64,000 bases of DNA from Rufibacter roseus (GTDB lineage: Bacteria > Bacteroidota > Bacteroidia > Cytophagales > Hymenobacteraceae). Every line of letters begins with the position of its first letter. Positions within the stretch are counted from its first letter, which is position 1. The translations under genes and the position numbers were made by a program. The notes beneath the pieces are model-generated. The model had not been told where the DNA came from, made no database searches, and saw only the letters and a list, made by a program, of their open reading frames with translations. The stretch spans positions 1 through 64,000 of the forward strand of contig NZ_LRML01000012.1 in NCBI RefSeq assembly GCF_001647285.1, in the 5' to 3' direction. Below, piece after piece: positions 8,618-62,090 of this stretch.

Positions 8618-8673
8618 AGAAGGGTCTGTTTTAGGGCTGTTTTCTCAAAAACAGCCCTAAAACAGACCCTTCT
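8618..8673. repeat. Dispersed palindrome copy, near-perfect 26-bp arms
   Basis: The most symmetrical copy: AGAAGGGTCTGTTTTAGGGC pairs with its complement, and about 26 bp of stem close a 3-4 base loop. It lies just after the minus-strand gene ending at 8692. Confidence 0.9.
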
Positions 8674-33528: not shown

Positions 33529-33560
33529 CTTGCATTTCTTCACTAAACCCGCTTCCTTTG
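33529..33560 (+). promoter_or_regulatory. Probable Bacteroidota-type promoter of the tyrS leader
   Basis: TTG at 33530-33532, a 20-base spacer, then TTCCTTTG at 33553-33560, close to the Bacteroidota consensus TTTG-N19-21-TAnnTTTG. The start of transcription would fall near 33566, about 15 bases before the leader ORF. Confidence 0.55.
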
Positions 33561-33581
33561 CAAAATATTTCGGCATTCAAA

Positions 33582-33668
33582 ATGACGCTACACCAGCTTA
33601 CGTTTTATAAGTACTCAGCCTACTCTACCTATTGCAAAATAGCCGTAGCCTGGGAAAACTATGCCTGA
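33582..33668 (+). CDS. Tyr-rich leader peptide of tyrS (28 aa)
   Basis: A 28-codon ORF from ATG 33582 to TGA 33666-33668. Five of 28 residues are Tyr (codons at 33606, 33612, 33621, 33630 and 33660), four of them packed into nine codons (YKYSAYSTY). This density, the position between a promoter-like sequence and an intrinsic terminator, and the downstream gene encoding tyrosyl-tRNA synthetase mark it as a regulatory leader peptide rather than a functional protein. The codons for Ala-Trp-Glu (GCCTGGGAA) also form the antiterminator strand. The frame is open upstream to 33483, but that part is palindrome sequence and lies before the predicted transcription start. Confidence 0.75.
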   Translation: MTLHQLTFYKYSAYSTYCKIAVAWENYA

Positions 33669-33733
33669 TTTGAAATAATAACACCTTTCAATACAGAAGC
33701 CCAGGTTCACGGACCTGGGCTTTCTTGCTTTTT
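33647..33733 (+). promoter_or_regulatory. Antiterminator/terminator switch of the tyrS attenuator
   Basis: Strand 2 (33647-33654, AGCCTGGG) lies inside the leader ORF and can pair with strand 3 (33700-33707, CCCAGGTT). Strand 3 is also the left arm of the terminator. Strand 1 (CCAG, 33593-33596) can pair with strand 2. Ribosomes stalled at the Tyr codons leave strand 2 free, favouring read-through; ribosomes reaching the stop codon cover strand 2, so the terminator forms. Pairings were found by eye. Confidence 0.75.
33697..33733 (+). terminator. Intrinsic terminator upstream of tyrS (attenuator)
   Basis: A perfect 10-bp stem (33697-33706 AAGCCCAGGT with 33713-33722) and 6-base loop, followed by TTTCTTGCTTTTT. 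No gene ends just before it except the Tyr-rich leader ORF, and tyrS starts 57 bases later. Confidence 0.88.
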
Positions 33734-33789
33734 GCCCAGCCGTGTCTTGCGCCTCCAACTACATTTTTTCTCAAAATCACTTTTACAAA

Positions 33790-35013
33790 ATGGACGCAAC
33801 CGCACAAGTACAACTTCTAAAAGAAAACGTAGAGATTTTTCTACCAGACAACGCCTTAGAGGAAAAACTGGCTCTGGCTGAAAAAGAAAACCGGAAGCTG
33901 ATCATCAAGCTGGGCTTTGACCCCACCGCCCCAGACCTGCACCTGGGCCACGCGGTGGTACTCAAGAAACTCCGGCAGTTTCAGGAGCTGGGACACACCA
34001 TTGTCATTATTATTGGTGATTTCACGGCCCGCATTGGTGACCCTACCGGCAAAAATAAATCGAGGCCGCCGCTGAGTTCGGAGCAAGTAAAGGTAAACGC
34101 GCAGACGTACGTGAACCAGCTCTCCAAAATTCTGGACGTAAGCAAATGCGTGATCAGGTACAACTCAGAATGGTTGGGCGCCATGGACATGACTGCGGCT
34201 ATTTCGCTGCTGTCTCAGGTGACCTTAGCCCAGATCATGCAGCGCACTGATTTCAACAACCGCTTTACCAGCGGTCTGCCCATTTCTCTGCATGAACTGG
34301 TGTACCCGCTGCTGCAGGGTTTTGACTCTTCAGTTATACACGCAGACATTGAAATGGGCGGAACCGATCAATTGTTTAATTGCTCCATGGGCCGCCAAAT
34401 GCAGGAAAGCGCTGGCAGCACCGGGCAAGCAGTAGTATGCATGCCCTTGCTCAGGGGAATAGATGGATCTGCCAAAATGAGCAAGTCTGAAGGCAACATT
34501 GTAGGTCTCACTGACCATCCCAACGAAATGTTCGGTAAAATTATGTCAATTCCAGACGCGCTGCTGCCTGAGTACCTGCACCTCACTACTGACTTCAGCA
34601 AGTCTGAAAAGCAGGAACTGTTAGACAGACTGCAACAGGGCGAAAACCCGATGAACATAAAGAAACTGGTAGGGTTGAACGTAGTTACCCAATACCACAG
34701 CACAGATGAGGCGCAGCAGGCTCAAGACTTTTTCCAGAACCAGTTTCAGAACAAGCGCTTTGATGAGAAAGAATTCATTACTGTTTCTTTGGTCACCCTT
34801 GGTTTAGGCATTTCTGAAAACCTGCGGCTGATTGACCTGTGCAAAGGCCTTAAACCTGAAGAAAGCCGGTCTAACCTGAAAAAGTTAATAGAAGCCGGTA
34901 GCGTGACAGTGAATGGCCTAAAAGTAACCTATGCCCAAAGTAGCTTAGAACCCAGCAGCTTCCCAGTAAAAGTACGTATTGGAAAAAGGGGCTTTTTTGA
35001 GGTTCTTTCCTAA
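33790..35013 (+). CDS. tyrS: Tyrosine--tRNA ligase
   Basis: A 407-residue class I aminoacyl-tRNA synthetase that charges tRNA-Tyr. The HIGH motif appears as HLGH (51-54), KMSKS at 229-233 (AKMSKSEGN), and an S4-type RNA-binding domain closes the C-terminus (LKKLIEAGSVTVNGLKV). It belongs to the TyrZ-like bacterial group (FDPTAPDLHLGH). ATG 33790 is chosen; the in-frame ATG at 33742 overlaps the leader region and adds 16 atypical residues. Expression is probably controlled by the leader-peptide attenuator upstream. A dispersed palindrome terminates the transcript. Confidence 0.96.
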   Translation: MDATAQVQLLKENVEIFLPDNALEEKLALAEKENRKLIIKLGFDPTAPDLHLGHAVVLKKLRQFQELGHTIVIIIGDFTARIGDPTGKNKSRPPLSSEQVKVNAQTYVNQLSKILDVSKCVIRYNSEWLGAMDMTAAISLLSQVTLAQIMQRTDFNNRFTSGLPISLHELVYPLLQGFDSSVIHADIEMGGTDQLFNCSMGRQMQESAGSTGQAVVCMPLLRGIDGSAKMSKSEGNIVGLTDHPNEMFGKIMSIPDALLPEYLHLTTDFSKSEKQELLDRLQQGENPMNIKKLVGLNVVTQYHSTDEAQQAQDFFQNQFQNKRFDEKEFITVSLVTLGLGISENLRLIDLCKGLKPEESRSNLKKLIEAGSVTVNGLKVTYAQSSLEPSSFPVKVRIGKRGFFEVLS

Positions 35014-50203: not shown

Positions 50204-53200
50204 ATGAGTACCATCATTAAAGCACCTAGCAAACCAGTTTTACAACCACATTTCCTATTCACCAAACGCCAGTTCATGCCGCTGCTCCTTGGCATTGGTA
50301 TCATTGCACTTGGGTTTGTCCTGATGGCTTCTGACGCGCACCCGCAGGGTTACGGCTTTCAGGGGCTCACGCTGGGGCCGTTGCTGGTGGTAGTGGGGTT
50401 GGCGCTTCCGTTTTGGGGCATTTTCAGGAAAAACAGGCCAGAAACGCATCCGCAGGACTCCCCTCTCCCAGCAAAAGTAAAAGTAACGGTTTCTCCGGCA
50501 TGGCGCGCATTTCAAAAGCTTGATACTTTAACCGGCTGGTTTGTTGGTTTAGTGGCGCTGGGAGTGTATGTGCTGACGCTGGAGCCCAGCACCAGCTTCT
50601 GGGACACGGGCGAGTTCATTGCAGCGGCTTATAAACTACAGGTGCCGCATCCGCCAGGGGCACCGCTCTTTTTGCTCATCGGGCGACTGTTCACGTTGTT
50701 CAGTTTCGGTGATACATCACAAGTGGCGTGGTGGATGAACTTTCTGTCGGCGTTGAGTAGCGCGGGAACGGTGCTGTTTCTGTTCTGGAGCATTACGCTG
50801 CTGGCGCAACGGCTAATGTCCATTTCGGCCGAAGGCCCTACTCCTGCCCAACGCATTTTGCTAATAGCCAGCGGGGCGGTGGGTGCGTTGGCCTTTGCGT
50901 TTACAGATTCATTCTGGTTTAGTGCGGTAGAGGCCGAAGTCTATGGCATGTCGTCGTTTTTTACGGCCATTGTGGTGTGGGCGGCGCTGAAGTGGCAGGA
51001 ACAGGCAGACGCTCCGGAGGCCGACCGTTGGCTCTTGTTTCTGGCGTATCTGGTGGGGCTTTCCATTGGTGTGCACCTGCTCAATCTGGTGGCGCTTCCG
51101 GCGTTGGCGCTGCTGGTGTATTTCAAGAAATACAAACTAACAAAGGGTGGCGTGGTGGCAGCCTTGGCCATTGGCGGGGCGCTGGTGCTGGCGGTGATGG
51201 AGGGTGTCATTACGGGGCTTCCGTCCATAGCAGGCGCGTTTGAGGTGTTCTTCGTGAACAGCATAGGCTTGCCTTTTGGCAGCGGCGCGGTGGTGTTCTT
51301 GCTCTTGCTGGCAGGAGCTATTGTGTACGGACTGCGCTGGGCGAAGCAGCATCAGAAGCCGCTGTTGCACACTTCACTGGTGGCACTGGTACTGGTGTTG
51401 GTGGGCTATTCTTCTTACCTGATGGTGCCTATACGGTCTGGCTTTAATCCGCCTATTGACGAAAACAATCCTGAGAATATTCTCTCCTTCGTGAGTTACC
51501 TAAAACGCGAGCAGTACGGCTCAAGGCCGCTGCTGTTCGGGCCGCAGTTCCCTGCCCAGGCGCAGAGCTACGAGAACACCGGTAAGGTATACGCGCCGCA
51601 GAACGGCAAATATGTGGTGGTAGACCAGAAGTTTGAGAGTGTGTACGATGGCAAAGACAAAACCCTGCTCCCCCGCCTGTACTCAGACCAGCCGGTGCAC
51701 CTGCGGGCGTACCAGCAGTGGGTGGACGTACAGGCGGGCCAGAAACCTAGCTTCGGGCAGAACCTGAGTTTCCTGTGGAAATACCAGCTGGGCCACATGT
51801 ACTGGCGGTATTTCGGGTGGAATTTCATTGGCCGCGAAAGCGAAGTGCAGGGCGCGGGGGTGCTATGGCCTTGGAAACAAAAACAAGACGTACCCGAGCC
51901 AATGGCCAGCAGCAAGTACCGGAACCAGTTCTTCCAGCTCCCCTTCCTGTTAGGTGTTTTGGGGCTGATTTTCCAATTTCGGCGCCAAAACAGAGATGCG
52001 TGGGTAGTGGCGCTTTTATTCTTTTTCACGGGCATAGCCATTGTGCTGTACCTGAACCAACCGCCTATTGAACCCCGCGAGCGGGACTACACTTTTGCGG
52101 GCTCGTACTATGCCTTCAGCATCTGGATTGGTTTAGGCGTTCTGGCTCTCGCCGAAGGATTACGCAAGTTCCTGAAATCAGCGGTTCCGACAGCGGTGAT
52201 AGCCACCGTTCTGGCATTCTCAGTTCCTATCATACTCTTAGCCGAAGGCTATGACGACCACGACCGTTCTAACCGCTACCACGCTCTCCTATCCGCTAAA
52301 AACTTGTTAAGTTCTGTGGCGCCCAATGCCATCTTGTTCACTAACGGCGACAACGACACGTTTCCGCTGTGGTACGCGCAGAAAGTGGAGGGCTTTAGAA
52401 CCGATGTGCGGGTGCTGGTAATGACTTACCTCAACACCGATTGGTACGTGGAACAGGCCATGCGGCAGGTGAACACCTCAGCACCGCTGCCCACCACATT
52501 AGAACCGTCGCACTACGCCTTCAGCAAAAACAATTACCTGCCGTACATGGCCAACCCCAGCGTGCAAGACAGCGGCATGGACTTAAACCAGTACATGGAC
52601 TTGCTAAAACAGAACCATCCGGCGCTGCAGGTGCAAACTCAGGACGGCCGAACACTCAGTGTACTGCCCACCAAAAAGCTAAGCCTTCGGGTAGACAGAA
52701 ACGCAGTCCTGCAAAATGGAACAGTCTCTTCTGAAAGAGCGAATCAGGTTCCGGAGGTAATGAACTGGGAAGTAACGGCTGGGGCATTGGAGAAAAAGCA
52801 CCTCTTCATGCTCGATGTTCTGGCTGCAAACCAATGGGAACGACCTATCTACTTCGCCAGCACCGGCTCTGAAACGGCTGAACTGGGTCTGCAGCCGTTC
52901 CTGCAGTTAGAAGGGCAAGCGCTTCGGTTGGTGCCCGCCCGAAACCCAGACCCTAAGGCTCCCTTTTATGTAGACCGCGCCCGCACCCAAGAAAGCCTAT
53001 TAAAGAATTTCCAGTACACCGGCTTGGCCGAAGATGACCATCCGTATGAGGAAAATTTCACCACGCAGATAGTGCCGGTGTACCGGAGCAATTTTGCGGA
53101 GCTGGCCTCAGCGCATTTACAAGCCGGAGACACTGCCCAAGCCCGCCACGTTTTGATTAAAGCCCTGGAACTCATGCCCGACAAAGGCGCACCGCACAAC

Positions 53201-62042: not shown

Positions 62043-62090
62043 AAACCCGTTTTCAGCCTGTTTTCCATAAAACAGCCCGAAAACGGGTTT
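62043..62090. repeat. Dispersed palindrome copy, helicase terminator
   Basis: AAACCCGTTTTCAGCCTG pairs with its near-complement ending CCCGAAAACGGGTTT. It lies 22 bases after the stop of the minus-strand helicase gene. Confidence 0.88.

Follow-up and report, generated by a model that had tools for sequence, protein, structure and literature searches.

A 64,000-nucleotide window of Rufibacter roseus DNA carries an accessory tyrosyl-tRNA synthetase (TyrRS) gene that is very probably controlled by a ribosome-mediated transcription attenuator of the trp/phe type, in which a Tyr-rich leader would sense the level of charged tRNA-Tyr. Comparison among related genomes has established the parts of this system, their order and spacing, the conservation of the control codons, a terminator and an antiterminator that exclude each other and covary, and the inheritance of the leader together with the gene. 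To our knowledge, this is the first well-supported Tyr-specific leader-peptide attenuator, and it matches no Rfam family at the gathering threshold. It would represent a classical form of control, applied to an amino acid new to it, in a phylum (the Bacteroidota) for which no described case was found.

All parts of the cassette lie on the forward (+) strand of the window. A promoter-like sequence at 33529-33560 combines a -33 TTG with a -7-like element, TTCCTTTG (33553-33560), a variant of the Bacteroidota-type TAnnTTTG placed about 21 nt 5' of the leader ATG. The leader ORF follows at 33582-33668, where its 28 codons specify the peptide MTLHQLTFYKYSAYSTYCKIAVAWENYA ahead of the stop codon, with Tyr at codons 9, 11, 14, 17 and 27; the first four are considered control codons, in agreement with orthologous Tyr-rich ORFs. 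The initial annotation had described this ORF correctly, including its five Tyr codons with four lying within nine codons. The orphan terminator that it reported is likewise found where it was placed, although the stem comprises 12 pairs (33696-33723, with a loop of 4 and a U-rich tail) rather than 10. The terminator is formed by a left arm at 33696-33709 (strand 3), common to both alternative helices as seen from structure and covariation, and a right arm with the U-rich tail at 33710-33735 (strand 4). The alternative helix joins AGCCTGGG (strand 2, 33647-33654), located within the leader ORF, to CCCAGGTT (33700-33707) through 8 pairs, one of them G-U, and the spacing originally given for strand 2, 14 nt 3' of the fourth Tyr codon and 11 nt 5' of the stop, has been confirmed. 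A CCAG at 33593, once proposed as strand 1, is displaced in the minimum-energy fold by a helix at about 33610-33634, where CTCAG.CTAC...CTATT pairs with AATAG..GTAG.CTGGG; this segment includes Tyr codons and is a candidate protector in the folding model. Folding has also indicated that the whole leader is more stable than its shuffles (z = -2.96). The tyrS gene does begin at 33790 and extends to 35013, but it encodes an accessory second TyrRS and is not the housekeeping gene.

The 407 aa window protein is a complete TyrRS of the TyrZ type, with HLGH and KMSKS motifs and both the catalytic and S4 domains; it matches TIGR00234 (tyrS) at 330 bits (cut-off 113.8), as well as PF00579 and PF01479. 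A second, distant TyrRS is encoded in the same genome (G000:C38:52958-54079), sharing 27% identity with it. The distant type is present in all 16 genomes of the genus and is the main enzyme, devoid of a Tyr leader, while the window type occurs in 9 of the 16; this patchy occurrence identifies the latter as an accessory enzyme. Outside the genus, the window type has been detected in 11/150 genomes of the family, 9/390 of the order and 1/395 of the class sample, as well as in 117 of 173 genomes of a Weeksellaceae genus (recognized as Chryseobacterium by a named member, L034) and in 24 of 148 genomes of the Weeksellaceae family sample. The accessory enzymes form a monophyletic clade (support 100/100) apart from the TyrZ-type enzymes of other phyla. 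Within this clade, one Rufibacter copy (G001) and one copy from another Cytophagales genome (G822) group with moderate support with Weeksellaceae copies and not with their own relatives, and the genes adjoining the cassette differ between genera. This indicates that leader, terminator and gene travel together as a monocistronic cassette, which, judging by tree and neighbourhood, moves horizontally between genera. No operon partner of the accessory tyrS is common to different genera, and no dedicated tRNA-Tyr was found beside the cassette. In three of the four g231 genomes (L140-L143; G705, G672 and G627), the accessory gene is interrupted by in-frame stops or breaks, and it is similarly broken in one Rufibacter genome (L007, G011), with leader and terminator intact in each case; to judge by these disrupted copies, the spare TyrRS is readily lost. 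At locus L259 (G1259, positions ~490-930), leader and terminator are again intact and tyrS is truncated to 87 codons, in a genome lacking a full accessory tyrS.

About 150 accessory copies have been parsed, from Rufibacter, Pontibacter, two other Cytophagales genera, Chryseobacterium and other Weeksellaceae. Nearly all of them are preceded by a leader ORF with Tyr codons and then an intrinsic terminator, the Tyr codons nearly always occurring as a YY pair or a denser cluster. Besides that of Rufibacter given above, examples of the leader peptide are those of Pontibacter (MTKQQHILPYPFYNDYYTLVYVWERYVHCCTA), g231 (MNNLMQSYYTYAYYYLIVRAGDCYIIK) and Chryseobacterium (MKHLNSILRLPFFSEYYTPGYRSGRLSISVIQ). 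In leaders of the Weeksellaceae type (n=118), Tyr16 is present in 118 and Tyr17 in 117. The codon for the first Tyr of the pair (codon 16, columns 46-48 of alignment A1) is always TAT (118/118), and that for the second is TAC or TAT. Leader and gene are also inherited together: the genomes with the Rufibacter leader-core pattern are precisely those 8, out of 16 in the genus, where this cassette type is present, and the Weeksellaceae leader N-terminus occurs in 112 of 171 Chryseobacterium-genus genomes, once in each, and only alongside an accessory tyrS, intact or truncated, since the lone case scored as lacking tyrS precedes a truncated one. As controls, short upstream ORFs with three clustered Tyr codons were sought at other TyrRS genes and found at none of the 16 main genes and at 6 of 99 TyrZ-type genes from other classes and phyla; a leader ORF with Tyr control codons precedes almost every accessory copy, so that the Tyr leader exceeds chance. 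A Tyr leader on the main tyrS is thereby ruled out for these 16 genomes, and its being an ancestral trait of TyrZ-type enzymes was also rejected, the six sequences being mutually unrelated apart from one identical pair.

The two competing helices are each conserved. In alignment A1 (115 sequences), pairing amounts to 98.7% in the terminator, where 38 cells show double changes, and to 99.8% in the antiterminator, where 4 do, neither reached in 500 shuffles (0/500 each); the sequences counted here and below are related and therefore not independent, representing about six well-separated lineages. The left arm covaries with both of its partners across clades: at position 4, the left arm, terminator partner and strand-2 partner read G/C/C in 129 cases, A/T/T in 9 and C/G/G in 4, and at position 6 they read A/T/T in 116 and G/C/C in 26. 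The antiterminator thus draws on the left arm of the terminator and is mutually exclusive with it. When arms from different clades are combined, the non-cognate pairs mostly pair less well, with some equal or better, and the antiterminator of the g231 clade retains only 5 of 7 pairs in a fixed register. In some lineages strand 2 has been kept although it is read in another leader frame (111 copies versus 3+4), which indicates selection on the RNA, not on the peptide, in those lineages. In Chryseobacterium, the distance from terminator to tyrS ATG is 20-25 nt; a promoter would not fit into this space, and tyrS expression therefore needs read-through. The trp/phe-type reading of the initial annotation is supported by these results: the Tyr-rich ORF and the two alternative stems that it proposed to follow in relatives are conserved with covariation, and the separate tyrS start downstream of the terminator that it named as contrary evidence has no place in a gap as short as that of Chryseobacterium. 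The protector is less clear, as the Chryseobacterium candidates (one at codons 9-11, another at the CCCG after YY) pair in 92-96% of cells with covariation not above that of shuffles. As far as sequence can tell, the accessory tyrS leader has every testable feature of the trp, his and phe attenuators except this protector helix.

The position of the Tyr codons relative to strand 2 has been evaluated by folding the stretch of RNA between a masked ribosome and the 3' limit of the left arm. When the A site holds a control Tyr codon, the probability of the antiterminator is mostly 0.8-1, and with the ribosome at the stop it is 0, in every clade; in ribosome-free folding this probability varies widely. 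A stall on the control codons is thus predicted to free strand 2, which a ribosome at the stop would not do. Counting back from the last permissive position, the final Tyr codon is 1-3 codons away in 146 of the 147 leaders, many of them related. Tyr density, with related sequences included, reaches 0.44 over the five final permissive codons, compared with 0.02 upstream and 0.08 downstream. It could be argued that the leader senses a general slowdown of translation and not tyrosine specifically, as folding predicts that stalling at many of the early codons would, in most clades, leave the antiterminator free to form as well. This is nonetheless very unlikely, considering the concentration of Tyr at the permissive boundary and the identity of the gene as a TyrRS, together with Chryseobacterium copy L109, where only the YYTP codons are permissive.

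For the attenuator, we infer the transcription start, ribosome stalling, read-through and inducing signal as follows. Transcription would begin directly 5' of the leader ORF. When Tyr-tRNA is ample, the ribosome would reach the stop codon and occlude or pass strand 2, allowing the terminator to form and leaving tyrS off. When Tyr-tRNA is short, through starvation or because the housekeeping TyrRS is inhibited or poisoned, the ribosome would stall on the clustered Tyr codons. Strand 2, starting some 8-14 nt downstream, would then remain free to pair with the left arm of the terminator, and the polymerase would read through into tyrS.

Some features of the Weeksellaceae leaders go beyond what classical attenuation needs. 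Over codons 2-13, the entropy at codon positions 1/2/3 is 0.21/0.08/0.89 in 118 Weeksellaceae-type sequences, with 66 nucleotide versions and only 11 peptide versions, and this periodicity vanishes past YY, codons 18-22 being without it. Copies from different Weeksellaceae genera retain the N-terminal motif, as do those acquired horizontally. Residues 2-13 (KHLNSILRLPFF) are thus maintained as amino acids while synonymous sites change freely, and our best guess is that they have a nascent-chain role in the exit tunnel. One explanation would be an arrest at YY assisted by the nascent chain or by a ligand, where the N-terminus K-x-L-N-x-I-L-R-L-P-F-F acts in the exit tunnel, either amplifying a Tyr-tRNA shortage or sensing a small molecule, with the same RNA switch following. 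It appears unlikely as the basis of control, given that the invariant Tyr codons agree with codon sensing and that this N-terminus is absent from the leaders of Rufibacter, Pontibacter and g231, which have more Tyr codons instead; the motif is therefore not needed in general, and such a role would supplement the attenuator and not replace it. Tentatively, and with some doubt, a hybrid may be envisaged for Weeksellaceae, in which the KHLNSILRLPFF nascent chain renders the ribosome hypersensitive at no more than two or three Tyr codons, joining starvation and arrest in a single switch on a mobile backup synthetase that answers failure of the housekeeping TyrRS.

The same protein-level conservation of the Weeksellaceae N-terminus, together with the existence of conserved short ORFs with terminators, could be taken to mean that the leader ORF is a small-protein gene in its own right, equipped with a terminator and incidentally placed before a tyrS with a separate promoter. 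This is extremely improbable, as the peptide drifts and shifts frame past YY, the terminator arm and its two partners covary as triples, the leader occurs strictly one-to-one with the accessory tyrS, and the terminator-ATG gap of 20-25 nt in Chryseobacterium cannot house the promoter that this reading demands. The chance of direct sensing of tRNA-Tyr or tyrosine by a T-box or another known RNA element is negligible: in Firmicutes, tyrS and tyrZ are under T-box control (tyrZ: PMC9437257), but here the T-box and specifier architecture is absent and no Rfam family, including the T-box covariance model, matched at the gathering threshold. At E up to 1, Rfam matches were at chance level only, the relevant ones being two protein-coding leader families below their gathering thresholds, Phe_leader (31.8 bits, cut-off 55) and Leu_leader (24.3 bits, cut-off 50). 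The ribosome-mediated attenuator is the preferred reading.

By its description, the nearest analogue is the auxiliary TrpRS1 of Streptomyces coelicolor, whose ribosome-mediated attenuation is named in the title of Vecchione and Sello (2010) as cited in PMC4787780, and which is also mentioned in PMC9437257. In both cases an accessory synthetase gene follows a leader peptide whose control codons match the amino acid of the enzyme, in a transcription attenuator that is a probable one here, and a spare enzyme is induced, or would be, upon failure of the main one. The two differ in amino acid (Trp versus Tyr) and phylum (Actinobacteria versus Bacteroidota), and they are likened by description and not by sequence; TrpRS1 is indolmycin-resistant, and the likeness drawn here is one of regulation. 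The attenuators of Escherichia coli pheST, pheA and trp share the leader ORF with control codons, the overlapping antiterminator and terminator and the ribosome geometry; they serve other amino acids in another phylum, their Rfam models fall below threshold here, and in the Bacteroidota system part of the leader peptide sequence is itself conserved. Bacillus subtilis tyrZ also encodes an accessory TyrRS, selective against D-Tyr, with expression responsive to uncharged tRNA-Tyr; it is governed by a T-box and a MarR regulator (PMC9437257), and its T-box RNA senses the tRNA directly, without a leader ORF. The His leader peptides of hisS/hisZ in bacilli (Naville and Gautheret 2010, PMC2965389) place a leader-peptide attenuator on synthetase paralogues beyond Proteobacteria and Actinobacteria, although they concern His in Firmicutes and are predicted only. 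Naville and Gautheret (2010) stated that leader-peptide systems were known only in Proteobacteria and Actinobacteria and added Firmicutes, with Bacteroidota unmentioned (PMC2965389). In the searchable literature no described case of leader-peptide attenuation in Bacteroidota was found, in line with the remark in the initial annotation that a Tyr leader for tyrS is not known to have been described in this phylum.

Should the attenuator work as proposed, transcription and translation in Bacteroidota would be coupled closely enough for the ribosome to steer RNA polymerase, and the question of coupling would become directly testable in this phylum. Bacteroidota generally do without Shine-Dalgarno initiation. 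The tyrS leader would also constitute a ready-made sensor of charged tRNA-Tyr in these bacteria, and its presence identifies the accessory TyrRS as a backup enzyme that may serve to resist TyrRS inhibitors or D-Tyr.

Further observations concern individual loci and their upstream regions. The leader of L269 (G1393) is degenerate, only one Tyr being left at the control position (SEYLLP), and tyrS is intact; by its sequence, this cassette may be under relaxed control. A T[AT]nnTTTG element lies 17-21 nt 5' of the leader ATG in 7 of 8 Rufibacter-type copies and 4-21 nt in others, with looser forms such as TATATTTAC in about half of the Chryseobacterium copies. In Chryseobacterium, a block CTTAATGGTTTAAATATTGG is strongly conserved about 60-30 nt 5' of the leader ATG, around the -33 region, with an inverted CCATTAAGA farther upstream in some loci; it is possible that this block is a regulator site besides the attenuator. 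Palindromic elements of the type GGCTGTTTTC..AAAACAGCC occur in the window at 8634-8656, 50416-50439 and 62056-62077, and similar palindromes lie near tyrS in several Rufibacter loci.
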